Positions 26,087 through 54,628 of a DNA stretch of 54,628 nucleotides are shown piece after piece. Numbering within the stretch: the first letter of the stretch is position 1; each line of letters begins with the position of its first letter. The notes beneath the pieces are model-generated. The model saw only the letters and a program-made list of their open reading frames with translations, did no database searches and was not told where the DNA came from. Both the position numbers and the translations under genes were made by a program. The stretch comes from Lachnospiraceae bacterium (GTDB lineage Bacteria; Bacillota; Clostridia; Lachnospirales; Lachnospiraceae), in the NCBI GenBank assembly GCA_024684215.1, contig JAIKXH010000031.1, positions 1 to 54,628 of the forward strand. The letters run 5' to 3'.

Positions 26087-27862
26087 TTGAAGATTGACAT
26101 TAAAGAGTTGGGAGTTAATGTATCCCCGATAATCTATTTCAATGTATCCCTCTATGAAGATTACCGCGTGGGAAAGTATGACCATGACGGAAGGGAATTC
26201 ATCGGAGGAAATCTCAATTCACTGTTTTATGAATTGGGAATAAATGATGAATGTAAAAATGAAATAGAGAACTTTTTAAAAAATGTTAAAGAAAAAGGTG
26301 AGTCCAGAATAATCACCTTTATTATGAACCGCAATGAGCTACCCCATCTTGTAGATATTACCGGAAGGTATCTGCAGGATGAGGAGCTTTGCTATGCCAT
26401 AAGTATCTGGGATATCGCAAACCTCGAGACACACTGTATGGAATACCAGACCAATATGCTCAAATATAAGGGCATGCTCGGTATGTCCGGACAGATATAT
26501 TTTGACTATTTTTTGGATTCTAACCAGATCGTTGCATACAGATATGTGGGCAGAAAATCCATCAGACTTTTCTATGACACCTTTGATGTCTTTATGGAAA
26601 AGATCATGGAGAATGCGGAATTAAATGACAGAAATGTTGTGGCTATTGAAAATTTAAAAGAGCAGCTCAGAGAAGGGAAGAGCAATGTAGATATAACCAT
26701 AAAGAGCGGCATGCTTCATATGGACGGAAAGATTCAAAAGCTTTTGTTTAAGGCGAGATATGATTCCCTCGGCGGAAAGAGAATGATGTACGGAATCATC
26801 ACCAATCTTTCGGGCGATGAGAATGATCTGCCGTACTATATGACCAATGCGGGACTGGATTCCGCAACGGGTGTGTTAAGTAAAAGGTCTATAATCGAGT
26901 ATTCCGATTATGTGTTTAACAGCGAAGCGACAAAGCACCGTAAGCACTATATGGCTTTGATCGATATAGATGATTTTAAGAGAATTAACGATAATTTCGG
27001 CCATCAGGTGGGAGACCAGGCTATCTCCATACTGGCAAACGTTCTCTCTGATATGGTTAGAGATAACGGAATGGTGGGCAGATACGGCGGAGACGAATTC
27101 TTTATTCTCACAGATAAGATAGAGGATGAAGAGGTACTTAGAAGCTTGCTTCGAAGAATCAGATCCAACGTTCAGACACTGGCCGCGGAGACTCTTTCAA
27201 TAGAAAAATTCACCCTGTCCATAGGAATATCAACTTATCCCGATGACGGAGACAATTATAAGGATTTGCTTGCCATTGCGGACAAATGCCTGTATATAGC
27301 CAAGGAAAAGGGTAAAGACAGATATATTATTTACAGGCCGGAAATGCACAGCGGTATTGAAACCGGCAGTGTTAAAAAGAGTATTTCGTCTTATGACGAA
27401 CAGTCAAAGGCAATAAACCGTGTGGTTGTAAGCCTTTTTAAGGAAGGCGAAAAGGCTGTCGCTGAGTCTATGTCCGATATTGTAAAAAGCTTTGACCTTG
27501 ACAGTATAGATATTTTTTACAAGGACATGGCGTCAGCTGCGTACAGCTGCGGAAAATACCCTTCGGGGCTTGTTGCCGAGGACTTTTTCAGGGACGAAAG
27601 CTATGGGGAGATGTTTGACTTAAACGGAGTGCATGTACTTAACAATCTGCCAACGCTCAGACATACGCACGAGGCCATTTATGATATGCTCTCGGAAAAG
27701 AAATGTATGTCTGCGATCCAGATTGCCCAGCCGTCTTTTGAAAATCCGGAATATTTCTTTACATGCAATATGCTTAACAGAAATCATAAATGGAGTGATG
27801 CCGAGGTGAGCAATCTATGCCTTTTCGGGACGCTTATATATGAGATTTTGCTTAAATCATGA
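26087..27862 (+). CDS. Diguanylate cyclase with PAS-like N-terminus and GAF-like C-terminus
   Basis: 591-residue soluble enzyme that makes c-di-GMP from two GTP. The N-terminal 260 residues look like two PAS-type sensory folds. The GGDEF domain (about 265-425) has an intact GGDEF signature at 334-338 in GRYGGDEFFIL and the DDFKRINDNFGHQVGD segment. The inhibitory I-site position reads RDNG instead of RxxD, so product feedback is probably lost. The C-terminal 160 residues end in KWSDAEVSNLCLFGTLIYEIL, typical of a GAF domain. It uses a TTG start with GAGAGG (26071-26076) ten bases upstream. Transcribed alone, between a palindromic promoter and a terminator. The signal is unknown. Confidence 0.85.
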   Translation: MKIDIKELGVNVSPIIYFNVSLYEDYRVGKYDHDGREFIGGNLNSLFYELGINDECKNEIENFLKNVKEKGESRIITFIMNRNELPHLVDITGRYLQDEELCYAISIWDIANLETHCMEYQTNMLKYKGMLGMSGQIYFDYFLDSNQIVAYRYVGRKSIRLFYDTFDVFMEKIMENAELNDRNVVAIENLKEQLREGKSNVDITIKSGMLHMDGKIQKLLFKARYDSLGGKRMMYGIITNLSGDENDLPYYMTNAGLDSATGVLSKRSIIEYSDYVFNSEATKHRKHYMALIDIDDFKRINDNFGHQVGDQAISILANVLSDMVRDNGMVGRYGGDEFFILTDKIEDEEVLRSLLRRIRSNVQTLAAETLSIEKFTLSIGISTYPDDGDNYKDLLAIADKCLYIAKEKGKDRYIIYRPEMHSGIETGSVKKSISSYDEQSKAINRVVVSLFKEGEKAVAESMSDIVKSFDLDSIDIFYKDMASAAYSCGKYPSGLVAEDFFRDESYGEMFDLNGVHVLNNLPTLRHTHEAIYDMLSEKKCMSAIQIAQPSFENPEYFFTCNMLNRNHKWSDAEVSNLCLFGTLIYEILLKS

Positions 27863-31014: not shown

Positions 31015-33084
31015 ATGAATGTTTTTACGACTGACAAAATCAGAAATGTGGTACTGCTTGGTCACGGGGGATGCGGAAAGACTTCACTGGTTGAAGCCAT
31101 GGCATTTCTCGCGGGGGCGACTAAGCGCATGGGAACTGTTACGGGCGGAAATACCCTGAGCGATTTCGATAAAGAAGAGATCAAAAGAGGCTTTTCCGTT
31201 AAGACTTCTGTGCTGCCTATAATCTGGGGAGATTATAAGCTGAACATTTTGGATACACCCGGTTCACCGGATTTTATCGGTGAGACCGAAGAAGCGCTTT
31301 CTGTTGCCGATGCCGCCATTATTGTTGTATCCGGTAAGGCCGGAATTGAATCCGGAACGAAGAGAGCCTGGGCCATGTGCGAAAAAAGGAAAATGCCCAG
31401 AATGGTATTTGTAACGGACATGGATATCGACAAAGCCTCCTTCAGAAAGGTGGTGCAGGACCTTCAGGAAATGTACGGAAAAAGGATTGCACCTTTCCAT
31501 TTACCAATAAGAGAGCATGAGCAGTTTGTCGGCTATGTAAATGTTATTCAGCAAAAAGCCAAAAAGTGGAATGCTCACGGTACGGTAGATAAATTTGATG
31601 TTCCGGATTATTCACAAGAAAACCTTAAAATCTGCCGCGACGTACTCTTAGAGGCGGTTGCGGAAACAAGCGAAGAATTCATGGACAGATACTTTAACGG
31701 CGATGAATTCTCCGAGGATGAGATAAGACAGGCTATGAGAGTCGGCGTATTTAACGGCGATATCGTTCCTGTGCTTATGGGGTCAAACACTCTTGCCAGA
31801 GGTATGTATACCCTTATGGCGGATATAGTAAAATACTTCCCAAGCCCCGACAGATGCAAATGTGCGGGTATCAATACAGTTTCAAACGATGTATTTGAAG
31901 CTGATTACGATTTCTCAAAGCCAAAGTCTGCATATGTATTCAAAACTATAGCAGACCCTTATATCGGCAAATATTCACTTATAAAAGTTAATTCAGGCGT
32001 GCTCAAACCCGATGATATTATGTACAACTATCACAGGGATGCGGATGAAAAGATCGGCAAGCTGTTTTGCTTTAACGGATCAAAGCCCGAGGATGTGACA
32101 GAACTTCATGCCGGAGATATCGGGGCACTCGCAAAGCTTTCCGTCACTCAGACTACCGACAGTTTATCTACCAGAAAAAATCCCGTAACATATCTTAGGG
32201 CACAGATATCAAAGCCTTATACCTACAGGGCTTACAGAGCTGTCAAAAAAGGTGATGAGGATAAAATCTCACAGGCTCTTTCAAAAATGATGGCAGAGGA
32301 CCTCACTATTAAATGTGAGAACGACAGCGAGAACGCACAGTCACTGATTTACGGTATCAGCGGTCAGCACCTTGAGGTAGTTCAGAGCATACTTTCGGAA
32401 AAATACAAAGTTGATATAGAACTTGACAGACCGAGAATTGCTTTTAAGGAAACTATCCTTAAAAAGACCGATACCGAGTATAAATATAAAAAGCAGTCCG
32501 GAGGACACGGACAGTACGGTCACGTAAAGATCATTATGGAGCCTTCATACGATACCGATACTCCGTATGTGTTTGAACAGACAGTTGTGGGCGGTGCGGT
32601 TCCGAAAAACTATTTCCCTGCAGTAGAAAAAGGAATAGCCGAGGCTGTAAAGGGAGGACCCCTTGCCGGATACCCCGTTAGAGGAGTGAAGGTTACATTA
32701 TACGATGGAAGCTATCACACCGTTGACTCTTCAGAGCTTGCATTTAAGGTTGCTACCGAACAGGCATTTAAACAGGGCTTTATGGAGGCTTCGCCCGTAC
32801 TCTTAGAGCCTATTGCAACGCTTAGCGTATCCGCTCCCGATGAGTTTACCGGAGATGTAATGGGCGATTTAAATAAAAGGCGTGGTAAGGTCCTTGGCAT
32901 GAATCCTACCGGTGAAGGATATCAGGAGATAGTTGCGGAAGTGCCGTATTTAGAGCTTTTTGAGTATGATACAAAGCTATATTCCATGACAAAAGGAAGC
33001 GGTGTGTTCTCATACGAATTTGCAAGATATGAACAGGCACCGTCGGATATCGAAAAAAAGCAGATAGAAGCGGCAAAAAATTAA
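31015..33084 (+). CDS. EF-G-like translation factor GTPase
   Basis: 689 residues with the five-domain EF-G order. G1 is GHGGCGKTS (16-24) and G3 is DTPG (from D80). The G4 motif, normally NKxD, reads TDMD (134-137), so guanine recognition may be altered or use other residues. Domain IV is present (KQSGGHGQYGHVKI, then FKVATEQAFKQGF). It is not in the usual rpsL-rpsG-fusA-tuf setting, so it is probably the EF-G paralogue class common in Clostridia rather than the main elongation factor. Proposed roles for that class (recycling, ribosome rescue) are not shown by the sequence. GAGGAGGT precedes the ATG. Confidence 0.88.
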   Translation: MNVFTTDKIRNVVLLGHGGCGKTSLVEAMAFLAGATKRMGTVTGGNTLSDFDKEEIKRGFSVKTSVLPIIWGDYKLNILDTPGSPDFIGETEEALSVADAAIIVVSGKAGIESGTKRAWAMCEKRKMPRMVFVTDMDIDKASFRKVVQDLQEMYGKRIAPFHLPIREHEQFVGYVNVIQQKAKKWNAHGTVDKFDVPDYSQENLKICRDVLLEAVAETSEEFMDRYFNGDEFSEDEIRQAMRVGVFNGDIVPVLMGSNTLARGMYTLMADIVKYFPSPDRCKCAGINTVSNDVFEADYDFSKPKSAYVFKTIADPYIGKYSLIKVNSGVLKPDDIMYNYHRDADEKIGKLFCFNGSKPEDVTELHAGDIGALAKLSVTQTTDSLSTRKNPVTYLRAQISKPYTYRAYRAVKKGDEDKISQALSKMMAEDLTIKCENDSENAQSLIYGISGQHLEVVQSILSEKYKVDIELDRPRIAFKETILKKTDTEYKYKKQSGGHGQYGHVKIIMEPSYDTDTPYVFEQTVVGGAVPKNYFPAVEKGIAEAVKGGPLAGYPVRGVKVTLYDGSYHTVDSSELAFKVATEQAFKQGFMEASPVLLEPIATLSVSAPDEFTGDVMGDLNKRRGKVLGMNPTGEGYQEIVAEVPYLELFEYDTKLYSMTKGSGVFSYEFARYEQAPSDIEKKQIEAAKN

Positions 33085-33111: not shown

Positions 33112-33120
33112 TGTTATAAT
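33112..33120 (+). promoter_or_regulatory. Extended -10 promoter for the GH2/signalling operon
   Basis: TGTTATAAT gives a perfect TATAAT (33115-33120) with the extended TGn. The -35 region is weak. It lies about 50 bases before the GH2 start and is the only good promoter I see before 45614, so it may drive the whole GH2-EAL-HD-GYP-kinase-regulator unit. Confidence 0.5.
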
Positions 33121-33171: not shown

Positions 33172-36100
33172 ATGTTTTCAAAAAAGCTTTTTAACGACGG
33201 CTGGGAATTTGTAAAACAAAGGCCGGATACAAAGCCGGAGGAACTTTCCGGGGCTTTGTTTAAAGCAGTTAACATTCCTCATGACTGGCTCATATACCAG
33301 GGCAATGATTTATATGAGGACGGCACGGGTTTTTACAGAAAGAGATTTAAGCTTGATAAGAGGCCGGACAGAAAATACGAGCTTTATTTTGAAGGCGTCT
33401 ATATGGACACCACCGTATATGTCAACGGGCATGCGGTGGGAGAATGGAAATACGGTTATTCTAGTTTTTTCTTTGACATTACTGAATTTGTCACAAACGG
33501 GGACAATGAGGTGCTTGTTAGGGTGGAGTTCAGATCTCCTAACAGCAGATGGTACAGCGGGGCGGGAATATATAGGGATGTTTATCTGATTGAGAATTGC
33601 GATACTCATATTGTGACTGACAGCCTGTATATTTCCGCCAAACCTGTTTTAGGGGACGGGGAAGTTTTAAACGAAAATACAGACCTTTCCGGAAAATGGA
33701 TCGTGAAGGTGAGCGCAGAGGTTAGCTGCCCCACTGTCCGCAGTAAGATGACACTTTGGTTTCCAAAGGCGGGAAAGAGCCACTCTGCTCTTATCGGTGC
33801 CGTGGAAAAAGAAAAATTACAGGATAATACAGTCAGAGTAGAATTTACAGAGGAGTTTGAAAGCCCCGAGCTTTGGTCACTTGAAAGCCCTGATCTATAT
33901 GATGCGGTCATATGTGTCACCAATCCCGACGGAGATTATGAGCATACCGATAAAAAGCTTGGTCCCGGCGGTCCTAAAGGGGACAGGCTTGAATGCAATT
34001 TTGGATTCAGAAGCTTTTGCTTTAACAGCGATAAAGGCTTTTTCATTAACGGCTCTCACATAAAGATTAACGGTGTTTGCGAACATCACGATTTGGGGGC
34101 CATAGGCGCCGCATTTAACAAAAGTGCCATGCGCAGGAAATTTAATATATTAAGACAGATGGGCGTTAATGCAGTAAGGACCGCTCACAATATGCCTGCT
34201 CCGGCTTTGCTTGATCTTGCCGATGAAATGGGATTTTTGATCTTTGACGAATCCTTTGATATGTGGGAAGGAGCAAAGACTGAGTTCGACTATGCGAGAT
34301 TTTTTAAAGAGTGGAATGAAAAGGATGTCAGAAGCTGGATCAGAAGAGACAGAAATCACCCTTCAATCTTTATGTGGAGCATAGGAAATGAAATATATGA
34401 CACACATACTCCCAGAGGCTTGGAAGTCACAAAGATGCTTCAAAAAAATGTCAGGGAGAATGACTTTTTTGAGAATGCGGCCATAGGTATAGGCTCTAAC
34501 TATATGCCGTGGGAGGGTGCACAGAATTGTGCGGACGTTTTAAAGTATGCCGGATACAATTACGGTGAAAAGCTTTATGACGATCATCATGAAAAGCACC
34601 CTGACTGGTATATTTTCGGAAGCGAGACATCATCCACCGTTCAGAGCAGAGGAATTTATCATTTCCCCTACGAAAAGAGCACGCTTGCGGATGACAACGA
34701 TCAATGCTCATGCCTGGGCAACTCTACAACAAGCTGGGGAGCACCCAATCCGGAGTATTGTATAAAAGCTGAAAGAGATCATGAATTTTCCCTTGGCCAG
34801 TTTTTATGGTCAGGTTTTGATTATATCGGAGAACCTACTCCTTATCACACCAGAAATTCATACTTTGGTCAGATAGATACTGCCGGATTTGCGAAGGACT
34901 CATTCTATGTATACAAGTCTGCATGGACAGATTACAAAAAAGAGCCCTTTGTACATGTTTTCCCTTATTGGGATTTTAATCCCGGACAGACCATCGATGT
35001 GAGAATAGCATCAAATGCACCTGAGGTAGAGCTTTTTGTTAACGGCAAATCAGCCGGAAGACAAAAGATAGACCACGCTCACGGGGATGTGCTTACCGGC
35101 AATTACAAAGCAATTTACGAGCCCGGTGAGATAACCGCCGTTTGCTATGATGAAAACGGCAAAGAATTGGACAGATGCTCGAGGCACTCATTTAAAGATA
35201 CCGCAAAGCTTGTACTTAAGCAGTATGCACCGGACGAAAAGCTCTATGCCGGGGCAGGAGATATGGCATTTGTGGAAGTGAGCGCCGTAGATAAAGACGG
35301 ATACCCTGTTGAAAATGCTTGCGATATGGTGAATGTTTCCGTATCGGGGGCAGGCTTTATTGCGGGCCTTGATAACGGTGATTCTACGGATACCGATGAA
35401 TATAAGGGCAATCACAAGAGACTGTTTGCCGGAAAAATGTTAATCATGATCGGCATCGGCGAGGAAAAGGGAGAGGTTATCGTAAATGTTTCTTCCGGTG
35501 AAAGCATCAAAGAAAGCCTTACTTTTGAGGTTACCGGAAAGAAAAAAACAGACGGTATTTCTCTTATACCCGAATGCTTTACGGATTATGAGAATGCAAA
35601 GAATGAGCCGATTCCCAGAATCAGGAAAATTGAGTTGATCAGTGACTCGCCCAAAGTACTGGGAAAAGATAATTCAGAAATCACTGTAAAAGCAGTGCTT
35701 TTACCTGAAGGCATCGGAGCATATTACAGTGGCAGCGATATTATCTGGAAGGTCGTAAATGACGGCGGAATAGATTCAAATATTGCGGTTATAGAAAATA
35801 CCGGAGACTTTTGTGCAAAGATTAAGGCTTTGGGAGACGGCGACTTTAGAGTAAGATGCATGGCAAAATGCGGATGCTCTGCCGCAAAAGTAATATCCGA
35901 GCTTGACTACCTCGCTCAGGGAATAGGGGAGGCACTTCTTGATCCCTACGGTTTTATATCGGGCGGACTCTGGAGCTACTGCGAGGGAGAAATCGGAATA
36001 GGTAACGAAAAGGGTGTTTCCTTTGCAAGGGGAGAGAAAAGCGTTATAGGATTTGAAAATATAGATTTCGGCTCCTACGGTTCAGATGAAATAACAATCC

Positions 36101-36693
36101 CTATATTCCATCTCTCAAGTGATCCTTTTGAATTTGAGATTTGGGACGGTAAACCTGACACGGAAGGAAGCATAAAGCTTCTTGAATGTAAGTATCAAAA
36201 GGAAATGATATGGAATGTATATCAGGAGGAAACGTATAAGCTTCCCGGCAGATTAAAGGGAATAAAAAATCTTTATTTTAAAGCCTTTGATAAGGCCCAC
36301 GTAAAGGGATTTTCCTTTAAAAAGATCGAGAAAGCATACGCACTTATAAATGCCGGTGAATGTGACAGTGTCTACGGTGACAGCTTTGAGAAAAAGGATA
36401 GTCGCATAGACGGAATAGGAAATAATGTAACTGTGGAATTTACCGATATGGATTTCGGTACGGACAGTGCAGCCAGGATTCTGATTTCCGGAAAAACCCA
36501 CATTCCCGTCAATACCATTCATCTTTTGTTTGATAACGGAAATGATGTCTCGAGGGATATTATAGAATTTAGTGCAAACAAGGGTGATACCCAGAGTTTT
36601 GACATAAGCCCTATTACAGGAAAAGGTACGGTCAGATTTGTGTTTTTACCCGGCAGCAGTTTTGATTTTAAGTCTTTTAAGTTCGAAAAATAA
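33172..36693 (+). CDS. GH2 family glycoside hydrolase (beta-galactosidase type) with C-terminal binding-like modules
   Basis: 1173 residues, no signal peptide. GH2 sugar-binding sandwich (about 1-180, FNDGWEF, IPHDW), immunoglobulin-like domain (about 190-280), then the (beta/alpha)8 catalytic domain with DESFDMW, acid/base E407 in MWSIGNEI and nucleophile E485 in FGSETSS. After about residue 600 come Ig-like domains of the type seen in long beta-galactosidases, then two beta-sandwich repeats at about 920-1055 and 1065-1173 that resemble CBM6. The substrate may be a beta-galactoside, but a beta-glucuronide or other is possible. ATG 33172 follows GGGAG; a TTG at 33154 is rejected. It is 26 bases before the EAL gene. 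Confidence 0.85.
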   Translation: MFSKKLFNDGWEFVKQRPDTKPEELSGALFKAVNIPHDWLIYQGNDLYEDGTGFYRKRFKLDKRPDRKYELYFEGVYMDTTVYVNGHAVGEWKYGYSSFFFDITEFVTNGDNEVLVRVEFRSPNSRWYSGAGIYRDVYLIENCDTHIVTDSLYISAKPVLGDGEVLNENTDLSGKWIVKVSAEVSCPTVRSKMTLWFPKAGKSHSALIGAVEKEKLQDNTVRVEFTEEFESPELWSLESPDLYDAVICVTNPDGDYEHTDKKLGPGGPKGDRLECNFGFRSFCFNSDKGFFINGSHIKINGVCEHHDLGAIGAAFNKSAMRRKFNILRQMGVNAVRTAHNMPAPALLDLADEMGFLIFDESFDMWEGAKTEFDYARFFKEWNEKDVRSWIRRDRNHPSIFMWSIGNEIYDTHTPRGLEVTKMLQKNVRENDFFENAAIGIGSNYMPWEGAQNCADVLKYAGYNYGEKLYDDHHEKHPDWYIFGSETSSTVQSRGIYHFPYEKSTLADDNDQCSCLGNSTTSWGAPNPEYCIKAERDHEFSLGQFLWSGFDYIGEPTPYHTRNSYFGQIDTAGFAKDSFYVYKSAWTDYKKEPFVHVFPYWDFNPGQTIDVRIASNAPEVELFVNGKSAGRQKIDHAHGDVLTGNYKAIYEPGEITAVCYDENGKELDRCSRHSFKDTAKLVLKQYAPDEKLYAGAGDMAFVEVSAVDKDGYPVENACDMVNVSVSGAGFIAGLDNGDSTDTDEYKGNHKRLFAGKMLIMIGIGEEKGEVIVNVSSGESIKESLTFEVTGKKKTDGISLIPECFTDYENAKNEPIPRIRKIELISDSPKVLGKDNSEITVKAVLLPEGIGAYYSGSDIIWKVVNDGGIDSNIAVIENTGDFCAKIKALGDGDFRVRCMAKCGCSAAKVISELDYLAQGIGEALLDPYGFISGGLWSYCEGEIGIGNEKGVSFARGEKSVIGFENIDFGSYGSDEITIPIFHLSSDPFEFEIWDGKPDTEGSIKLLECKYQKEMIWNVYQEETYKLPGRLKGIKNLYFKAFDKAHVKGFSFKKIEKAYALINAGECDSVYGDSFEKKDSRIDGIGNNVTVEFTDMDFGTDSAARILISGKTHIPVNTIHLLFDNGNDVSRDIIEFSANKGDTQSFDISPITGKGTVRFVFLPGSSFDFKSFKFEK

Positions 36694-36719
36694 CAGCATG
36701 TTTTTTGAGGTGATATAAA

Positions 36720-38654
36720 ATGACTTTTGTTCAGTGGTTAAGTAAGAATTATGATTTTATATTTATTCTGGTCATAATAGGATATACCATTATATCCAAC
36801 AGTAAAATGTACAGCAGTGTGCGTAAGAAATTCATCGCACTTGCGGTGCTTACTTTATTGGAGGCATTTATCAGTCAGCTCGAGGATTATTTTTCGACTT
36901 TCGAATACCGAAATGTAATGCGTTATTTGCTTTCTACCGCGGGATATATTATAAGGCCGACGATCATATATGTTATCCTGCTCATTGTAGTCAGAACAGA
37001 CAGCGTAAAAAGACAGATAATGTATGGTATTCCGCTTGCGCTTGTATCGCTGATCCTCATAATAGACCTTCCCTTCGGAAACGTTTATTATTTTACTGAG
37101 AGTAACAATCATGCCACAGGCAAGCTATTCTTCCTTACATACGGAATCCTGGTGCTTTACCTGATCATGATAGTTTTATTTATCATAATCAAATGCGATC
37201 TTGCGAACAATATAGCGGAGTTTGTGACGGTTCTTGTTGCCATAGGCTTTGTTGTGATTAACATAATCGGAGAGACCGTTTTGGATGGTTTTTCGGGGCA
37301 TACGCAGGTGGTTATAGCGCTGGCGGTACTGATTTATGCGATATATTTCAAAAGCACCGAAGACAGGATTGAAAAAACTCAGCTTGAAATGACCGAGATA
37401 AAAACCGGACTTTTCAATGAACATGCCTGTGTTGCGCTTATAAACCAAAAGAGCAAAGAAGGCACTTTGACAGACTATGCAACGATTTATTTTGACCTTG
37501 TCAGATTCGGACTTATAAACGATCAGTACGGAATGGAAATAGGAAATGTAGTACTGGTTGAATATGCTAAAAAATTGAGCGGTATGTTAAGAAGCGATGA
37601 GATACTTGCCAGACAGGGAAGTGACAGGTTTATCGCCGTTGTCCTTAAAAGAAATCTGGATATCATTCTGGATGTTTTAAAGGGAATGGAGGTTAAATTT
37701 AAAGAGGACGGAGATGAATATGATGTAAATATCAGCGCTCACATGGGTATCTATAAAATAGACGATCCTACGCTTTTGGGTGAGGAAATTATCTCGAATG
37801 CATACTCTGCACTTACATACGGTAAGTCAAACGGTAACGAGATAACTTATCTTACTCCTGAACTTAAGCAGATGCTCAGGGATCAGAAACAGTTCGGAAT
37901 GGATATTCCCGTGGCGATGGCAAACGAGGAATTCATTGTATACTATCAGCCAAAAGTAAACAGTAAAACATCCACTCTTTGCGGTGCAGAGGCTCTTGTC
38001 AGGTGGCTCAGAAACGGCTCGCTTGTTCCGCCGGGTCAGTTCATTCCTATTTTGGAAACAAAAGACCTTATGTGCGACATGGACTTTTATATGCTCAGAC
38101 ATGTCTGCGCGGACATATCCAAATGGATTGAACAGGGACTTGTACCTCCCACCATATCGGTCAACTTTTCAAGAAGAGGACTTTCCAATTCGCATCTTGC
38201 GGAAGATATAGATGCCGTTGTAAATGAGTATCATGTCCCCAAAAAGATGATAGAGATAGAAATCACCGAAACTATAGATGAGTTCCCCATAAGCGTGCTT
38301 AATGCTTTTGTAGATGATCTTCACAGGCTTGGATATAAAGTAGCCGTAGACGATTTCGGAAGCGGAAGCTCATCGCTTAGTCTCTTGAGGGAAGTAACCT
38401 TTGATACACTTAAGATTGATAAGGGATTTGTGGACAGAGCATATGCAAAGGATTTAACAATCCTCAGCTATATGATAAAGCTTGCCAAGGCTCTTGGCGT
38501 GGAAGTCCTTGCGGAGGGCGTTGAGCAAAAAGAACAGGTTGAAACACTCTCATCTCTGGGATGTGATATTATTCAGGGATATTATTATGACAGGCCGCTC
38601 CCTAAGGAGAATTTCGAAAAAAGAATTATCAGCAGGAGATATGTAAATGGATAA
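36720..38654 (+). CDS. Membrane c-di-GMP phosphodiesterase: multi-TM sensor, degenerate GGDEF, EAL
   Basis: 644 residues. About seven membrane helices (8-220) form an N-terminal sensor resembling the histidine-kinase-type 7TM module. The GGDEF domain (about 225-385) has GSDRF at 300-304 where GGDEF should be, so it cannot be a normal cyclase. The EAL domain (about 390-640) is intact: E424-A425-L426 in AEALVRW, EITET, VDDFGSG and AEGVEQ. Hydrolysis of c-di-GMP is expected, perhaps with the dead GGDEF binding GTP as an activator, as in known proteins of this design. It lies between GH2 and the HD-GYP gene, overlapping the latter by eight bases. Confidence 0.88.
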   Translation: MTFVQWLSKNYDFIFILVIIGYTIISNSKMYSSVRKKFIALAVLTLLEAFISQLEDYFSTFEYRNVMRYLLSTAGYIIRPTIIYVILLIVVRTDSVKRQIMYGIPLALVSLILIIDLPFGNVYYFTESNNHATGKLFFLTYGILVLYLIMIVLFIIIKCDLANNIAEFVTVLVAIGFVVINIIGETVLDGFSGHTQVVIALAVLIYAIYFKSTEDRIEKTQLEMTEIKTGLFNEHACVALINQKSKEGTLTDYATIYFDLVRFGLINDQYGMEIGNVVLVEYAKKLSGMLRSDEILARQGSDRFIAVVLKRNLDIILDVLKGMEVKFKEDGDEYDVNISAHMGIYKIDDPTLLGEEIISNAYSALTYGKSNGNEITYLTPELKQMLRDQKQFGMDIPVAMANEEFIVYYQPKVNSKTSTLCGAEALVRWLRNGSLVPPGQFIPILETKDLMCDMDFYMLRHVCADISKWIEQGLVPPTISVNFSRRGLSNSHLAEDIDAVVNEYHVPKKMIEIEITETIDEFPISVLNAFVDDLHRLGYKVAVDDFGSGSSSLSLLREVTFDTLKIDKGFVDRAYAKDLTILSYMIKLAKALGVEVLAEGVEQKEQVETLSSLGCDIIQGYYYDRPLPKENFEKRIISRRYVNG

Positions 38655-39993
38655 GATAAGGTTAATGAAAAAGATAGTTAAGATTTTAGCGATAGCCATG
38701 GCGGCGATTTTGGTTATCTTGATAATTGCCTTTATTGGACATGTCGTAAAGATTAATAATTATAATATGTTGGAAAGAGAGATCACATCCGATTCCACAA
38801 CTACGGAAGCGATGGTTGATATCCATCCGAGGGGTGGAGTTACCGACTCCTGGGAAAAGGAAAACACTGGACTTGGATTTAAACTTAACGCTAAAATATA
38901 TGAGCTTGTGGTAACCAACAATTCGCAGACTCTTATGGATGACTGGAAACTGCGCATAAATATTCACGATGACTGTTACCTCAACAATGGATGGTGCGGT
39001 AAATTTGAGATTCACCAGTTTGACGAGGAAAAGGGCGAGCAGGTTCAGACCATTGACCTTAGAAATTACGATGTCTCGGAGATAACCATAAATTACACCA
39101 TGGGTGGACAGGACCTTTTGATTCCGCTGACCGAAGGTGATTATATCATCTATCTTCCCGATGGCTCGGGTGTTGCGGGAGAGGTACCCATAAAAGGAAG
39201 TGCCGATTTTTCCGGCTCTGTAGTATGCGGAATAATCATTTACAACAAATTAGGTTCGATCGATCTGTCCGATTATGTGTTTAATTACAATCTTCATTTG
39301 ACATATTGGGAAGGAAGCATCGGAAGATTCTTTACAGTGTCATTCCCTGCCTGGGCTCTTTTGATGATTGTGCTGGGAGTTATATTCCTTATGACTGTTC
39401 AGTTTGAGGAAAGATTTATAATTCAAGGCAAGATACTTGAGGAGGTTTTGGGGGTAACTTGCTCTTTGGCTGATTCAAAGGATTATTATTCAAAAGAACA
39501 TTCAAAAAGATGTGCCAATTATTCTAGACTCATAGCCGAGAAACTCGGTATGGATAAGAACGATTGTGATACGGTTTACTATGCGGCACTTTTGCATAAC
39601 ATCGGAAACTATTATGTACCCGAGCAGATACTTAGGAAAAACGGAAAGCTTACCACTGAGGAATACAATCAGGTAAAGACACATACAACCAAGGGTGCGG
39701 AGCTTTTAAAGGAATTACAGCATATTCCGCATGCGGATGAGGCGGCCTTATACCATCATGAAAGATATGACGGAACAGGTTATCCTACCGGCAAAAAGGG
39801 TGAGGAAATACCTCTTGTGGCAAGAATTGTAGCCGTTGCCGATGCATTTGACGCCATGAGCATTGACAGGCCATACAGAAAGAAGTTTATGAGGGAACAG
39901 ATAAGGGAGGAATTTATAAAGAACAGAGGAACCCAATTCGATCCTACTATAGTCGGAGTTTTCCTTGATATTATGGGAGAGTTGGATCTGTAA
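38647..39993 (+). CDS. HD-GYP-like receptor with carbohydrate-binding-like ectodomain and altered HD motif
   Basis: 448 residues. An N-terminal helix (about 10-32) and a second (about 238-260) bracket an extracytoplasmic beta-sandwich (about 50-235) with the pattern VTNNSQTLMDDWKL...NNGWCGKFE and a late SADFSGSVVCGII, which resembles the CBM2 cellulose-binding fold. The cytoplasmic HD-GYP domain (about 270-445) keeps HHERYDGTGYP (H370 onward, GYP at 378-380), but the HDxGK motif reads H317-N318-I-G-N. The Asp of the HD pair is a metal ligand, so catalysis is doubtful and it may be a c-di-GMP-responsive or sensory protein. Its start lies inside the end of the EAL gene, so translation is coupled. 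Confidence 0.82.
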   Translation: MDKIRLMKKIVKILAIAMAAILVILIIAFIGHVVKINNYNMLEREITSDSTTTEAMVDIHPRGGVTDSWEKENTGLGFKLNAKIYELVVTNNSQTLMDDWKLRINIHDDCYLNNGWCGKFEIHQFDEEKGEQVQTIDLRNYDVSEITINYTMGGQDLLIPLTEGDYIIYLPDGSGVAGEVPIKGSADFSGSVVCGIIIYNKLGSIDLSDYVFNYNLHLTYWEGSIGRFFTVSFPAWALLMIVLGVIFLMTVQFEERFIIQGKILEEVLGVTCSLADSKDYYSKEHSKRCANYSRLIAEKLGMDKNDCDTVYYAALLHNIGNYYVPEQILRKNGKLTTEEYNQVKTHTTKGAELLKELQHIPHADEAALYHHERYDGTGYPTGKKGEEIPLVARIVAVADAFDAMSIDRPYRKKFMREQIREEFIKNRGTQFDPTIVGVFLDIMGELDL

Positions 39994-40026
39994 TTTATCA
40001 GCCAAACAAACGGGAGCTTGTAAACA

Positions 40027-43000
40027 ATGAATAAGTGGAACAAAAGAATTATTATTGCATTTTTGGGAATACTTCTTAATATTGCCGGAAGATATTTTGC
40101 ATACAGATTCCAGGTGCCTTCTTACGCGAATGTGCTTGGAACAATAATCGCTGCATATTTTGAGGGACCCATAGTGGCCGGTATTGTAGCAGTTATAAGC
40201 TGCTGCGGCTCAACGATTTTTTCAAGGACGGATCTGTATTTTGTTGTGGCAGATCTGGCCGTGGCCGTTACTGCCGGATTTCTCGGCAAAAAGAACAGGT
40301 ACTTTGAAAACATTTTGCTTACCATAAGTTCCACTGCCCTTTTTGCGATAGTAAGAGGTGTTGTATTTGCTTTTGTAAACTACTTTTTATATAGCGGAAG
40401 AACCGGAATGGTTATGTCGGACGCAATAATAGATTACCTTAGCAATATTAATTTTCCCCTTAGTTTTAGCTATTTGATAGCAGCTGTTCATGTTGCGTTT
40501 ACTGATGTGTTTATCGCTTGTTTTATCATATATCTCGGAATAGGAGTTACAAGACTTTATAAGAAAAAGAAAAAGGCCAAAAAGCTTAAAAAGGCTCTTG
40601 GCGGAGGCATAAGTCTTGTTATTCTTACCGCAGTTTTGACCACCGGAGTTTTCGCTTATATAAAGACTGATTCGTATGCCGGAAGCGGAGTATACTTTAT
40701 CGAAAAGATTTATAATGCAGAGAACGGCCTGGTCGGCGGATGCCTTAATGACATTGACATGACAAAAGACGGTACCATGTGGATAGGTACATACGGAGGA
40801 CTCTACCGTTTTAACGGATCTTCGTTTTTCCTGATAGACGATATCAAAAATGTCAGATCGATTCAGGCTTTATATGTAGATGATTATGACAGACTTTGGG
40901 TCGGGACTCAGAATGCCGGAATAACGCTTCTTAACATAGATAAAAGCTATGATACCATCGATATGTCTGTGGGCTTACCCTCCAATGCCGTTAAGGATAT
41001 AATATCGGACTCCAATGGCCTCTTCTATGTGGCTACTACCGGCGGTGTCATGGTTTATGAATACGGAGAAGACGGATTAAATATAATTAAGACTTATGAA
41101 TCCATCGCAAATATGAAGCGCTTCTCCGCCGACGAAAACGGAAGAGTTGTAGGACTTAACACCATTGGCGAGATTTATGTATTTGAAAACGGCGAAATAA
41201 TCATCAAAGAGACCTTTGATACATTGAGTCCTACCAGCGCAACCTTTGACAAGGAAGGATTTTTGTATCTGGGAACCGATTCAGAGCTTATAGTTAAGTA
41301 TTCCGTGGCAATGCACGGACTGGATAAGGAAAAAATCTATAATGCAAAGGATCTTAAACACATCAAAGATGTTTTCTTTGATGACTCCGGTTATATGTAT
41401 ATAGCCTCTGACAGCGGTATCGGATATATCGATGAGAGTGGTAATGCCAGTGTTATAGAAACAGGTGATTTCGATAACGGAATCGACACTATTTTTAAAG
41501 ATTATCAGGGTAATTTATGGTTTACTTCATCGAGATGCGGCCTTTTATCCCTCAGCAAATCTTCATTCAGTGATATGTTCAGGCTCTGTAATGCCAACTC
41601 GGCGGTATGTAATGCCATAAAAGAGTGGAACGGATATCTCTATGTGGGAACCGATGACGGTCTTAAGATTTTAAACATTGAGGACGGAAAAACAGTCTTT
41701 TCGAGGACCTCTTCCTGGTTTGAAGATACCAGAGTAAGATGTATGACTATGGATAAATCGGGAAAACTTCTTGTTGCAACGAACGGTGAGGGAGTTATGG
41801 CTCTTAGCAATATGTCCAAGATTGAGCCGTATGATAAAGGAGATAACCCTGAAAAGAAAGTAAGGCTGGTATACAGATTAAAGAGCGGAGATATAGTTAC
41901 CTCCAGCGATAACGGACTTATATTTTTTAATGACGGAGTGGAATATAAAAGGCTGCGGCTTAATGCCGAGCTTGGCGGCGGTACTATTTTGAATCTGTTA
42001 GAGAGCGGCGGAACGCTGCTCGCCGGAAGCGACGGAGACGGTATCGCAATTATCAAGGATGGAAATGTACTTAAGTATATAACCAGAGACGACGGTCTTG
42101 ATTCCGGAGTTATTTTAAGAATAGTTGAAGATGAGATCGGTTCCGGATACTTTGTGCTTACCGGAAGCGGAATCAACTATATGACCGACAGATATGAGAT
42201 CAGCGAGCTTTCCGTACCCTATTTTAACAACTTTGACCTGGTTCAGTATGAAGATAAAGTATTCATTATAGGTGGAGCCGGTATTTTCGTTGTTAATTAT
42301 GAGGCGCTCATGGAAGGAGCGGGAAATGATGCCTTTAAGCTATTGGATATAAAGGCCGGACTCCCCGGAAGCCTTACCAGTAATGCATGGAATTACGTAA
42401 GCTATGACGGATTTTTGTATGTGTGCGGCAACAACGGTATTTACTCACTCGATCTCGATGATTATGAAATAGATGTTACAGATTACCTTACCAAAATCAC
42501 AGCTATAAAGCTTGACGGAGAATACAATGACGTAACTGAAATCGGAGGAATAGATGTACCGAGAGGAACCGAAAAGGTTGAGCTCTCATTGGAAATCAAT
42601 AACTATACCACGACAGATCCCAATGTCAGATATTATATGGTGGGTGTTGATAAAGAGAAAGTCACCGTTCCATCCAGCGAGCTGGAGACCGTTTCGTATC
42701 TTAAGCTTCCATATGGAGATCACGATTTCCACATTGAAGTTCTCGATGATGACGGAAAAGTTATAAAGGAGCAGATTTACACCATCACCAAGGAGAGGGA
42801 GCTTTATGAGACCGCCGCATTCCAGGCATATTTCTACTCCATACTTATTCTGTTTGTGATATTCCTTGTTATTTCCATTGTGCAGGGTGCACTTATGGCA
42901 CAAGATAAAAAGGAAAACAATAAGCACGAAAAGGTTGTTACGCAGCTTGAGAGAGAAAAGGCAGAGGCACTTGAACGTGCACTTCATATGGAGGAGGATG

Positions 43001-44835
43001 CCAACAGGACAAAGTCGGAATTCCTTGCAAATATGTCTCATGAGATCCGTACACCTATAAATGCAATCATAGGTATGGATACCATGATTATGCGTGAGGC
43101 CAATCAGGCGGAGATAAAGGGATACGCAAAGGATATCCATAATGCAAGTAAGACACTTCTTGCACTCATCAATGATATTTTGGATTTTTCAAAGATAGAG
43201 TCCGGAAAGCTTGAGCTTGTTTTGGGAGAATACGATTTAAGTCTTGTTATAAATGACCTTGTAAACATGATAAAGCCCAAGGCCGACGGAAAGCATTTAA
43301 AGCTGGAGGTAAAGGTTAATCCCGATATCCCCAACGGCTTATATGGCGATGAAGTTCGAATAGAACAGATAATAATCAATATATTAAATAATGCAATCAA
43401 GTATACCGAAAAGGGAACCGTTACTTTCTCGGTTGATTATGAAGACGCTGAAGGCGGAGCAATAAAGTTAAAGATCAGTGTAAAAGATACCGGTATAGGA
43501 ATTAAGCCGGAAGACATTGAAAAGCTTTTCTCACCTTATCAGAGAATTGATGAGCAGAGAAATAAAAAGATTGAAGGAACCGGCCTTGGTATGAGTATTA
43601 CCAAGAACCTCCTTGAAAAGATGGGCAGCCATCTTGAAGTTACAAGCGTATACGGAGAAGGCTCCAATTTCTCCTTCGAGATAATTCAGCCTGTCAGAAC
43701 CTTTGATAAAATCGGTGATTTTAAGGTTAAGGCAGAAGGCAAAGATACCGTTATCACCGATGTTGAAAGATATCACGCACCCGATGCTCATATTCTTATA
43801 GTTGATGATGTGGAGATGAACCTCATCGTTGCAACGAGCCTGCTTAAGCGAATACAGATCGGAATAGAGACTGCAAATTGCGGTAAAGACGCCATCGCCC
43901 TCGCTAAGCAAAAGCATTATGACATTATTTTGCTCGACTCGATGATGCCGGAAATGAGCGGAGAAGAGACCATGGGACATATTAAGGCCGAGTGTCCCGA
44001 AAATGCCGATACGCCTATAATAGTTCTCACTGCGCATGCCGTTAAAGGTGCAAGAGAGGAGTATTTGAGACTCGGATATACAAATTACCTCTCAAAGCCG
44101 CTGGACGGAATTAAGCTTGAAGCTATGTTGCAGAGCTATTTGCCGGATGATAAGATAATTCCCGTCGATGAGCAGGAAATCGCTAAAAATAATGAACTTG
44201 CCGGAAATGATGAGTACTGCGAAGGCTCCGTGCTTGGCAAGATCGGTCAGATTGAAGGCATTGAGCTTTCAAAGGGCATTGAGACTGCCGGCGGAGAGGA
44301 TGCTTACGGCGTCATCTGCCGAAACTTTTACGATACGGCCAAGATGCGTATGGGAATGATAAAGGATACCTTTGAGCGTGAAGATATTCAGAATTATACC
44401 ATTCAGGTCCATGCACTTAAGAGTTCTGCAAGATTAATCGGTGCATACAGTTTTTCCGAAAAAGCTCTTGAACTTGAAACTGCGGGAAGAGAATCCAATA
44501 TTTCCCTGATTAAGGAAAAGACAGGAAGTATTTTGGAGGAGTATAACTGGTTCTATGATAAGTTCGCTGAAATCTTCGGAGCTGAGGAAGAAAAAGAAGA
44601 CGAGGATGATAAGCCCGAATTATCCGAAGAGGATTTAAAAGGAAATCTTAATGATATGGCCGAACTTTTGGAGGCATTTGATTTTGATACTGCCAAAGAG
44701 CTTTTTGATTCCTTTGAGGATTATAAGCTTCCGGAAGATTTTAAAGATATGTACAGTGCTATTAAGTCCGCTATGGCTGAAGTGGATAGGGACAGCGTAA
44801 TTAAATTGATTCACATTTACAACCAGGAGGATTGA
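40027..44835 (+). CDS. Giant hybrid histidine kinase: membrane domain, propeller sensor, HisKA, HATPase, receiver, Hpt
   Basis: 1602 residues. An N-terminal five- to six-helix membrane domain (1-185) recalls ECF-transporter S components. A further helix (about 198-215) leads to a double beta-propeller (about 230-830), a Y_Y_Y-like sandwich (about 840-905) and a helix (about 935-960). The kinase has H1005 in SHEIRTP, N-box NILNNAIKYT, and G-boxes DTGIGI and GTGLGM. The receiver has VDD and phosphoacceptor D1304 in LLDSMMPE. The Hpt domain has H1462 in VHALKSSARL. A Glu/Asp-rich linker and a helical tail follow (about 1510-1602). There is no DNA-binding domain, so phosphate must go to another protein, probably the regulator five bases downstream. 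Confidence 0.9.
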   Translation: MNKWNKRIIIAFLGILLNIAGRYFAYRFQVPSYANVLGTIIAAYFEGPIVAGIVAVISCCGSTIFSRTDLYFVVADLAVAVTAGFLGKKNRYFENILLTISSTALFAIVRGVVFAFVNYFLYSGRTGMVMSDAIIDYLSNINFPLSFSYLIAAVHVAFTDVFIACFIIYLGIGVTRLYKKKKKAKKLKKALGGGISLVILTAVLTTGVFAYIKTDSYAGSGVYFIEKIYNAENGLVGGCLNDIDMTKDGTMWIGTYGGLYRFNGSSFFLIDDIKNVRSIQALYVDDYDRLWVGTQNAGITLLNIDKSYDTIDMSVGLPSNAVKDIISDSNGLFYVATTGGVMVYEYGEDGLNIIKTYESIANMKRFSADENGRVVGLNTIGEIYVFENGEIIIKETFDTLSPTSATFDKEGFLYLGTDSELIVKYSVAMHGLDKEKIYNAKDLKHIKDVFFDDSGYMYIASDSGIGYIDESGNASVIETGDFDNGIDTIFKDYQGNLWFTSSRCGLLSLSKSSFSDMFRLCNANSAVCNAIKEWNGYLYVGTDDGLKILNIEDGKTVFSRTSSWFEDTRVRCMTMDKSGKLLVATNGEGVMALSNMSKIEPYDKGDNPEKKVRLVYRLKSGDIVTSSDNGLIFFNDGVEYKRLRLNAELGGGTILNLLESGGTLLAGSDGDGIAIIKDGNVLKYITRDDGLDSGVILRIVEDEIGSGYFVLTGSGINYMTDRYEISELSVPYFNNFDLVQYEDKVFIIGGAGIFVVNYEALMEGAGNDAFKLLDIKAGLPGSLTSNAWNYVSYDGFLYVCGNNGIYSLDLDDYEIDVTDYLTKITAIKLDGEYNDVTEIGGIDVPRGTEKVELSLEINNYTTTDPNVRYYMVGVDKEKVTVPSSELETVSYLKLPYGDHDFHIEVLDDDGKVIKEQIYTITKERELYETAAFQAYFYSILILFVIFLVISIVQGALMAQDKKENNKHEKVVTQLEREKAEALERALHMEEDANRTKSEFLANMSHEIRTPINAIIGMDTMIMREANQAEIKGYAKDIHNASKTLLALINDILDFSKIESGKLELVLGEYDLSLVINDLVNMIKPKADGKHLKLEVKVNPDIPNGLYGDEVRIEQIIINILNNAIKYTEKGTVTFSVDYEDAEGGAIKLKISVKDTGIGIKPEDIEKLFSPYQRIDEQRNKKIEGTGLGMSITKNLLEKMGSHLEVTSVYGEGSNFSFEIIQPVRTFDKIGDFKVKAEGKDTVITDVERYHAPDAHILIVDDVEMNLIVATSLLKRIQIGIETANCGKDAIALAKQKHYDIILLDSMMPEMSGEETMGHIKAECPENADTPIIVLTAHAVKGAREEYLRLGYTNYLSKPLDGIKLEAMLQSYLPDDKIIPVDEQEIAKNNELAGNDEYCEGSVLGKIGQIEGIELSKGIETAGGEDAYGVICRNFYDTAKMRMGMIKDTFEREDIQNYTIQVHALKSSARLIGAYSFSEKALELETAGRESNISLIKEKTGSILEEYNWFYDKFAEIFGAEEEKEDEDDKPELSEEDLKGNLNDMAELLEAFDFDTAKELFDSFEDYKLPEDFKDMYSAIKSAMAEVDRDSVIKLIHIYNQED

Positions 44836-44840
44836 TTTGA

Positions 44841-45614
44841 ATGATGGAAAAAACCATACTTTTTATTTCGGACAGGGAATCGTTCATAATTAAGTCTATA
44901 ATCAAAAACATCGAAAATGCCGGTGTAAAGTGTACTTTTTGCCAGCTTAAGGTAAATGAGCTGATGAAGTATAAAGAAGACATAAACGGAGATATTTACC
45001 TTTATATCGATGATAAAAATGATATCGACGAAATGGGCAGCACCTATCTGAGAGATATGGTTAAGGATATGGATTATAATCTTTACCTTATCGGTTATAA
45101 GGAAGATGTGGACCAGTTAAAGGCTGAAGTTTTTAGCGGATGTGTGGCCGGGGAGTATATGAGACCGGTAAATGCCGGAACCTTGGCAACAGATATAGTT
45201 AACAGCTCCAGTGACGAGAACCGTAAAAGCAGGATGAAACATATACTTGTTGTTGATGATTCCGGTACTATGCTCACCACGATAAAGAGCTGGCTTGACG
45301 ATAAGTATCGCGTTACGCCTGTTAACTCCGCTATGAATGCCATAAGCTTTCTTTCAAAGGAGCGTCCGGACCTTATACTTTTGGATTATGAGATGCCTGT
45401 GTGCAACGGACCGAAGTTTTTGGAGATGATGAGGACCGATGTGGACTGCGGAGATATTCCTGTTATGTTTCTCACGGGACATGACGATGCCGGAAGCGTA
45501 AGGAGCGTTTTAGCACTCAAGCCTGTCGGATATTTGCTTAAATCCTTGCCAAAGGAGAAAATAGTCGGAGAGGTGGATGCCTTCTTCCAAAAGCAGAAAT
45601 TAAAGATGCAATGA
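44841..45614 (+). CDS. Two-domain response regulator: pseudo-receiver plus receiver
   Basis: 257 residues. The C-terminal receiver (about 132-255) is complete: VVDDSG acidic pair, phosphoacceptor D182 in LLDYEMP, FLTGHDD and YLLKS. The N-terminal half is receiver-sized but without the conserved pocket. There is no output domain. It starts five bases after the hybrid kinase and has AGGAGG (44825-44830) inside the kinase's last codons, so the two are translated together and it is the obvious acceptor from the kinase's Hpt. A close paralogue lies at 5479. A second ATG at 44844 is possible. Confidence 0.88.
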   Translation: MMEKTILFISDRESFIIKSIIKNIENAGVKCTFCQLKVNELMKYKEDINGDIYLYIDDKNDIDEMGSTYLRDMVKDMDYNLYLIGYKEDVDQLKAEVFSGCVAGEYMRPVNAGTLATDIVNSSSDENRKSRMKHILVVDDSGTMLTTIKSWLDDKYRVTPVNSAMNAISFLSKERPDLILLDYEMPVCNGPKFLEMMRTDVDCGDIPVMFLTGHDDAGSVRSVLALKPVGYLLKSLPKEKIVGEVDAFFQKQKLKMQ

Positions 45615-45625
45615 TGTGGTTTTAA

Positions 45626-45659
45626 AGCGTAGCAGTTTATGACTGCTACGCTGTTTTTT
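45626..45659 (+). terminator. Intrinsic terminator of the signalling operon
   Basis: AGCGTAGCAG (45626-45635) pairs perfectly with CTGCTACGCT (45643-45652) and is followed by G and seven T. It closes the unit that begins with the GH2 gene. Confidence 0.9.
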
Positions 45660-54504: not shown

Positions 54505-54628
54505 GGGCGCGCTCTAACGGGTGAAAGTCCCAAACACGCCTAGGCAACGAGGAAGTGTATAGCTGAACAGCAAGGGTGTCCATCGTGAGGTGGAATCTGA
54601 AGGAAGCTGTAGGCAAACTCTCGGTCCG
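54505..54628 (+). mobile_element. 5' end of a group II intron (cut by window edge)
   Basis: From about 54505 the sequence has the conserved domain I layout of bacterial group II introns common in gut Firmicutes: GGGCGCG start, GGGTGAAAGTCCC, AACACGCC, GGCAACGAGGAAGTGT, GGTGTCCATCGTGAGG and GGAATCTGAAGGAAGC. The first bases depart from the GTGYG consensus, so the exact 5' splice site is uncertain by a few bases. The reverse transcriptase and domains V-VI would lie beyond the window. It sits just after a terminator hairpin, a favoured site of some intron classes. Confidence 0.8.

Follow-up and report, generated by a model that had tools for sequence, protein, structure and literature searches.

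The window analyzed here is an entire contig of 54,628 bases (JAIKXH010000031.1) from the genome of a Lachnospiraceae bacterium (2.79 Mb in 168 contigs). It contains a gene block whose conserved unit, judged from the gene order in relatives, is four genes, encoding a GGDEF-EAL protein, an HD-GYP protein with HN in place of the HD motif (HN-GYP), a hybrid histidine kinase and a receiver protein. In some lineages the phosphorelay has been lost together with the receiver gene, and the sensor part of the kinase, the EAL protein and the HN-GYP protein persist there. Tentatively, we consider it most likely that these genes encode a glycan-sensing envelope complex, which would steer the hydrolysis of cyclic di-GMP (c-di-GMP) by the EAL domain through protein contact, the phosphorelay being an optional branch. 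The features of the unit are:

36720..38654, + strand: membrane GGDEF-EAL protein with intact EAL residues and a degenerate GGDEF motif (GSDRF)
38647..39993, + strand: HN-GYP protein, comprised of a transmembrane segment, an ectodomain, a second transmembrane segment and an HD-GYP domain with HN replacing HD (Pfam, alignments)
38740..39318, + strand: CBM2-like extracellular domain of the HN-GYP protein (match at about residues 83-137; hhalign)
39598..39609, + strand: degenerate HD motif, with Asn318 at the position of Asp222 and Asn321 at that of Lys225 of PmGH
40027..44835, + strand: hybrid histidine kinase with membrane domain, propeller, Y_Y_Y, transmembrane segment, HisKA, HATPase, REC, Hpt and C-terminal domain
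40027..40668, + strand: N-terminal membrane domain of the kinase, weakly similar to 5TM-LYT or an ECF substrate component
40669..42831, + strand: Reg_prop beta-propeller and Y_Y_Y (Pfam), probably extracellular, according to hydropathy
44584..44832, + strand: C-terminal domain of the kinase (positions 1520-1602), paired with the receiver protein
44841..45614, + strand: stand-alone response regulator with a putative pseudo-receiver at the N-terminus, an intact receiver at the C-terminus and no output domain

The membrane/ectodomain part of the HD-GYP protein, used as a query, has eight close orthologs in 30 other genomes of the genus, plus five distant ones; with the window's own genome counted, the block is carried by nine of 31 genus genomes. 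A scan of named genome contigs yielded 17 loci (eight of these being the same places as the eight genus-sample orthologs), that is, 18 loci with the window; the titles of eight of the 17 relatives mention rumen or omasum. The order EAL-HD-GYP-kinase is seen in all 16 loci showing the three genes, and the receiver gene is the fourth member in nine of the 15 scorable loci. The end of the EAL gene and the start of the HD-GYP gene share 8 or 14 bases in 15 of 16 loci, the exception (L041) resulting from an earlier start chosen by the open reading frame (ORF) caller. L052, whose HD-GYP frame stops after 96 residues, was left out when order, relay and receiver were counted; L039 and L046, the latter showing the HD-GYP and kinase genes only, were excluded from the relay and receiver counts, as their contigs end within the kinase. 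An earlier note, made from this DNA alone, had described five genes as one unit and suggested their order in relatives as a check. The order proves to be conserved for the four genes named above, but the preceding gene of a GH2 enzyme is not part of the unit (see below).

In the HN-GYP protein, all 17 orthologs have Asn where PmGH has Asp222, the HD diad thus being absent; where PmGH has Lys225, 15 of them have Asn, one has Thr and one Met. According to the accessible part of the PmGH report (PMC4159591), Asp222 acts there as the bridge between two metals, with Lys225 close to the leaving group. The equivalents of H189, H221, H250, H276, H277, D305, Y285 and R314 (metal ligands, the GYP tyrosine and the guanine-binding arginine) are invariant in the 17 orthologs, including six metal ligands other than the HD aspartate, and K317 corresponds to Arg in 16 and Lys in one. 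A further PmGH ligand, Glu185, is replaced by Tyr in 16 and His in one; it is likewise not Glu in 5z7c (Tyr) and 4r8z (Pro). Both HD and Lys are kept in all 25 distinct outgroup ecto-HD-GYPs, taken from 34 loci of distant ectodomain relatives, with loci lacking a GYP motif in the same frame left out. The window's own genome has nine other HD-GYP matches; among the seven inspected, six have HD and one is truncated where its contig stops. By these alignments the HD-to-HN change is specific to this operon and fixed, and it probably abolishes hydrolysis. An active HD-GYP was judged unlikely from the residues, as the bridging Asp and the nearby Lys are both lost, and the supposed role of this protein as a second working phosphodiesterase is not supported on the same grounds, HN and the loss of Lys being seen in 17 of 17 orthologs.

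By profile similarity, the ectodomain of the HN-GYP protein is CBM2-like and may bind glycans. The profile of 28 members, compared by hhalign with that of 18 CBM2 domains from Lachnospiraceae genomes, gives a probability of 96.6 (E-value 5e-10) over 51 columns, which cover roughly half the CBM2 profile, and the 17 close orthologs alone give 95.6. In the controls the values are at most 1.9 for 60 column shuffles, 0.2 for the reversed profile, 0.3 for the Y_Y_Y domain and 0.2 for two GH2 stretches. PF00553 (CBM_2) matches 13 of the 28 members weakly (E-value up to 1, the best being 0.0017); in the window ectodomain Pfam finds no hit, the PF00553 cut-off not being reached. The ectodomain profile produced nothing significant against PDB sequences, and the ectodomain has no similarity to the kinase membrane domain. 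In the family sample it was found in 39 of 397 genomes (E-value up to 1e-3) at 41 places, of which 29 are long matches (E-value below 1e-18) and 12 are short and weak. Two membrane receptors had been credited with carbohydrate-sensor ectodomains; this is supported for one of them, the HN-GYP protein, which looks carbohydrate-binding-like by the CBM2 match.

The EAL catalytic and metal-ligand motifs, scored with a residue list that we take to be the relevant one, are intact in all 16 rows covering the domain, and the L052 fragment keeps those that it covers. The domain aligns to solved EAL enzymes. The GGDEF site reads G[SG]DRF, once AGDRF, in all 16 covering rows and does not match the GG[DE]EF cyclase motif. 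From these motifs, the EAL domain is the only c-di-GMP enzyme of the operon that looks competent. A separate GGDEF protein with an intact GGDEF motif is encoded at 26087-27862 of the window, roughly 9 kb before the EAL gene.

In the kinase, the membrane domain matches 5TM-5TMR_LYT in 10 and ECF_trnsprt in eight of the 17 orthologs at E-values up to 1 (best 3.6e-6 and 3e-4, respectively). Pfam gives no convincing hit in the C-terminal domain (best E-value 0.0036, in one of nine members). The receiver protein has 257 residues, with a Pfam receiver in the second half only; its first half, which has no convincing Pfam hit and aligns across nine orthologs, may be read as a diverged (pseudo-) receiver. 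The His-Asp-His-Asp phosphoacceptors of HisKA, REC, Hpt and the terminal REC are present in the window and in all eight other receiver-bearing loci. The terminal receiver protein has no output domain, in agreement with the phosphorelay without DNA-binding output described before.

The window and eight other loci have an intact relay (HisKA His, HATPase boxes, REC Asp and Hpt His) followed by the receiver gene. The receiver is missing in six of the 15 scorable loci, and these are exactly the six with a broken relay. In L038 the HisKA His is replaced by Arg, HATPase is largely deleted, the REC Asp is replaced by Gly and the Hpt His by Arg; L041 has lost HATPase, with REC Asp changed to Glu and Hpt His to Gln; in L047 and L050 HATPase is deleted and the Hpt His is Tyr; in L048 and L051 the REC Asp is Glu, with HATPase and both His kept. 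The kinase C-terminal domain is present in all nine loci with the receiver and in none of the six without it. The strict co-loss therefore suggests that the receiver, the relay and the kinase C-terminal domain form one branch. The sensor (Reg_prop propeller with Y_Y_Y in all six), the DHp helices, EAL and HN-GYP persist in the relay-broken loci, and therefore another output probably exists. No receiver ortholog was found elsewhere in the six relay-broken genomes, which are incomplete assemblies: the best matches, in two of them, reach 38%, the level of paralogs, and the other four have partial, weaker ones. In L038 (15511-17108; the same as L025:13801-15398), where the receiver was lost, genes of a zinc-ribbon-like membrane protein and an SPFH-like protein (names read from sequence) come next after the decayed kinase.

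The best tree (LG+G4 model) has three relay-loss changes. A single clade of all six relay-broken loci is rejected by the approximately unbiased (AU) test (p 6e-5), and a single clade of five without L038, the longest branch, is not (p 0.28), so that the relay was lost at least twice independently. The ratio of nonsynonymous to synonymous differences (pN/pS) was calculated for eleven pairs, in many of which synonymous differences are near saturation; exact estimation was dropped for this reason. In four relay-broken pairs (L047, L048, L050, L051), the stretch from the transmembrane segment through the coiled coil to HisKA has pN/pS of 0.07-0.14, compared with 0.02-0.13 in four intact pairs, and the propeller 0.13-0.25, compared with 0.12-0.31. 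Hpt is looser in the relay-broken pairs (0.16-0.44 versus 0.04-0.20). L041, compared with two intact rows, has 0.15-0.16 for the HisKA stretch and 0.23-0.29 for the propeller.

Similar parts occur in other arrangements. The kinase C-terminal domain (about 85 residues, with the motif LLEAFD-DTAKEL; L132-L151) is often paired with pseudo-receiver proteins: it has 93 hits in 25 of the 31 genus genomes, one to seven in each, the pseudo-receiver has 109 hits in 27, and a pseudo-receiver lies within 150 bases after 54 of the 93 domains, including 26 of the best 30 (copies of the focal operon counted). In 20 sampled loci of the pair, seven neighbour proteins were typed with Pfam, giving glycerol-3-phosphate dehydrogenase, a receiver protein, an AAA ATPase, an ATPase of the ATP-binding cassette (ABC) type, a solute-binding protein, an isocitrate/isopropylmalate dehydrogenase-type enzyme, and HD-GYPs. 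In L148, L149 and L151, a propeller kinase of 1419-1442 residues and a dual receiver stand between two HD-GYP genes. The second HD-GYP has several degenerate ligands in L149 and L151; in L148 its HH and GYP motifs are altered and HD is intact. We rejected it as a member of the window protein's subfamily: the REEF tail motif is common to both, but identity is 36-46%, below that of most ecto-HD-GYPs, and since it is no closer to the window protein than other HD-GYPs are, its decay looks separate. L090 encodes an EAL-HisKA-HATPase-REC-Hpt fusion, followed by a dual receiver and an ecto-HD-GYP, which is the closest outgroup of the window domain (52%) and the same protein as in L062. In L085, L087 and L088, the ectodomain is on the kinase itself, and a dual receiver and an HD-GYP protein follow. 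By their domain content, these rearranged loci appear to tie the same parts together. The window itself encodes, at 739-3813, a 1024-residue protein with Reg_prop propeller, Y_Y_Y and HD-GYP (HD intact), a one-component version of the same idea. Another protein with a pseudo-receiver and a receiver, at 36% to the one of the operon, is encoded at 5479-6237; its gene is flanked by those of a DcuC-like carrier and a Mur ligase, and no histidine kinase gene adjoins it.

A literature search over titles and abstract starts, covering few subscription papers, found no account of this operon. The Reg_prop propeller with Y_Y_Y is known as the sensor of Bacteroides hybrid two-component systems; the kinase described here differs from these in having no AraC-type DNA-binding domain by Pfam, and in having Hpt and a separate receiver. 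In GdpX2/GdpX3 of Xanthomonas (accessible part of PMC6637768), a similar propeller sensor is coupled to GGDEF within one polypeptide, whereas here the coupling would link separate proteins. Going by the accessible part of PMC13090378, the HD-GYP receptor that comes closest among those we found is DvhD of Desulfovibrio vulgaris, a membrane protein with an extracytoplasmic domain and an HD-GYP domain that misses metal ligands and binds c-di-GMP without hydrolysing it. In DvhD, HD is changed to SQ and HH to MN, and dCache and PAS domains are present, whereas HN-GYP has a changed HD-motif Asp and Lys, a CBM2-like ectodomain, and EAL-protein and propeller-kinase partners. ShkA-TacA of Caulobacter also ties a kinase relay to c-di-GMP (accessible part of PMC7010744); its kinase is gated by c-di-GMP and its output is a transcription factor, whereas here DNA-binding output is absent and some lineages do without the relay. 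HmrABCX, also of Caulobacter, has a membrane hybrid kinase and a putative phosphorelay affecting c-di-GMP, but with separate Hpt proteins and an effect via the cyclase DgcB; the accessible part of PMC11481889 does not describe EAL, HD-GYP or a dual receiver as members.

In the window, two further features adjoin the four genes:

33172..36693, + strand: GH2 beta-galactosidase-like enzyme, a neighbour in one clade (Pfam/NCBIfam; GalB model below its cut-off)
45626..45652, + strand: strong intrinsic-terminator-like hairpin with a 12-pair stem and T-tract, the first in the terminator scan list

The coordinates of the earlier note agree with ours, with ORFs at 33172-36693, 36720-38654, 38647-39993, 40027-44835 and 44841-45614 (gaps 26, -8, 33 and 5), as does its terminator at 45626. 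Its five protein identities agree with Pfam/NCBIfam (GH2, GGDEF-EAL, HD-GYP, HisKA-HATPase-REC-Hpt kinase with Reg_prop/Y_Y_Y, receiver protein), the degenerate HD-GYP and GGDEF motifs having been missed. A good promoter had been placed at 33115; the bases TGTTATAAT are present there, but the promoter scan does not list the site, and promoter-like sites in the region are no commoner than in shuffles (41 vs 41.3), so that this promoter was set aside as unsupported.

The GH2 enzyme, which matches best the solved structure 7cwd, adjoins the block in five of 14 scorable loci (the window and L036-L039), 14-37 bases from the EAL gene, and is absent before it in nine (L040-L043, L045, L047, L049-L051); L044, L046, L048 and L052, where the upstream sequence is absent, were excluded from this count. 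GH2 homologs (E-value up to 1e-100) occur in 28 of the 31 genus genomes, in three of them in pieces. In L152 (G006), the genes that flank the block in the window (a uxuB-like gene, EF-G, GH2, both ABC genes and a GH8-like gene) stand together with the block absent, and in L153 (G005) EF-G, GH2 and ABC genes are on one contig and the block is on another. On these grounds GH2 was rejected as a component of the system; it is a clade-specific neighbour, not a fixed part. An EF-G-like protein (31015-33084) directly precedes GH2 in six genus genomes, with a gap of 1-73 bases in relatives by the longest ORF (21, 24, 63 and 1 in four of them); because these gaps are small, EF-G may share the GH2 transcript, which suggests co-transcription of a translation factor and a glycosidase. 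The Rfam search of the window found nothing but the start of a group II intron (D1-D4-3) at 54579-54628, cut by the contig end.

In the mechanism that we tentatively prefer, the propeller and the CBM2-like domain would read extracellular plant-glycan cues, and the kinase DHp helices and the HN-GYP protein would touch the GGDEF-EAL protein and set c-di-GMP hydrolysis, HN-GYP acting as a c-di-GMP receptor and not an enzyme. Contact with the substrate would thus produce a local change in c-di-GMP. Phosphate passing from HisKA via REC and Hpt to the receiver would form an additional branch, not essential to the system, by which the state is adjusted or reported, and in which the kinase C-terminal domain and the pseudo-receiver would dock to each other; lineages that have lost the relay would keep only the contact route. 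This model is favoured because the parts survive relay loss and because EAL is the only enzyme left with intact motifs. We infer from sequence the contact route from sensor to EAL, the ligand class and the direction of the c-di-GMP change. The glycan-sensing c-di-GMP system proposed earlier stands in so far as a conserved operon joins envelope sensors to a c-di-GMP enzyme; GH2 and the HD-GYP as a second working phosphodiesterase drop out of it.

Several observations weigh against the contact model. Only two of the relay losses are firmly independent. In L038, compared with the window, constraint is looser throughout the kinase (pN/pS 0.28 in the HisKA stretch, 0.44 in the propeller, 0.55 in the membrane domain), and because of this the L038 kinase may be decaying; one clade and L041 show clear constraint on sensor and DHp, which is doubtful for L038, all pN/pS values being rough because of the near saturation of synonymous sites. 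All 17 named relatives are titled as Lachnospiraceae metagenome assemblies, and L052 consists of the EAL end and a truncated HD-GYP frame of 96 residues. Moreover, HD-GYP genes lie within two genes of the kinase C-terminal domain/pseudo-receiver pair in only five of 20 sampled loci (L140, L142, L148, L149, L151), the domain models finding no HD-GYP within two genes in the other 15; as most pairs have no neighbouring c-di-GMP gene, the pair may be a general module, with c-di-GMP as one use.

Among the alternatives, the one to be taken most seriously, though we consider it rather unlikely, centres on the phosphorelay: the receiver, phosphorylated by Hpt, would bind and switch the EAL or HN-GYP protein, and the relay-less lineages would be losing the system. 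It agrees with the full relay in nine of 15 scorable loci, where the receiver is each time directly 3' of the kinase, with the strict co-loss, which shows that the two work jointly, and with the principle of Rec-controlled c-di-GMP enzymes, already known according to the accessible part of PMC8041772; the weak constraint in L038 shifts some weight towards it. It has to explain why six loci keep open EAL, HN-GYP and sensor frames with no relay or receiver, looking constrained in L047, L048, L050 and L051, and why the same type of kinase/receiver pair mostly has no adjoining c-di-GMP gene. The same relay-less lineages, which keep HN-GYP and EAL with a kinase unable to pass phosphate, make improbable an inverse flow of the signal, where c-di-GMP bound to HN-GYP or the degenerate GGDEF would gate the kinase and the receiver would be the output. 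This possibility draws on the pocket of HN-GYP, which retains most residues except the bridging Asp, and on the Caulobacter kinase ShkA, activated by c-di-GMP (accessible part of PMC7010744).

Slightly less probable again is an inside-out receptor resembling LapD or DvhD, with c-di-GMP on HN-GYP altering the CBM2-like ectodomain, for instance how firmly it holds cellulose or a partner at the surface. The order of transmembrane segments, ectodomain and HD-GYP in HN-GYP fits it, as does DvhD, for which the authors propose outward signalling (accessible part of PMC13090378). However, the genes typed with Pfam, which are some of those in the window, include no protease or adhesin, no search aimed at these having been made, and relatives of this protein with intact HD suggest control of hydrolysis from outside in. 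The five-gene GH2-linked sensing unit of the earlier note, finally, is very improbable and largely refuted as a general account: the short distance between GH2 and the EAL gene in five loci means that it could hold in one clade, but the nine loci without GH2, its homologs in 28 genomes versus the block in nine, and the L152 flanks without the block contradict it elsewhere.

If the contact model is generalized, which we do with more hesitation than for the model itself, Lachnospiraceae may have a class of c-di-GMP complexes in which a giant propeller kinase contacts a separate phosphodiesterase, with a CBM2-bearing pseudo-HD-GYP as co-receptor and an add-on relay whose loss, on at least two occasions, left behind a pseudokinase receptor; L148, L149 and L151 would repeat this plan with HD-GYP in place of EAL and with their own, separately degenerating second HD-GYP. 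Our comparison also points out a widespread pair of a kinase C-terminal domain and a pseudo-receiver that has no Pfam model, and it offers a testable function for degenerate HD-GYP domains. If the model is true, gut fibre degraders would own a switch from glycan contact to c-di-GMP, operated by a phosphorylation-independent histidine kinase, and the relay-less lineages would be a natural control experiment for it.

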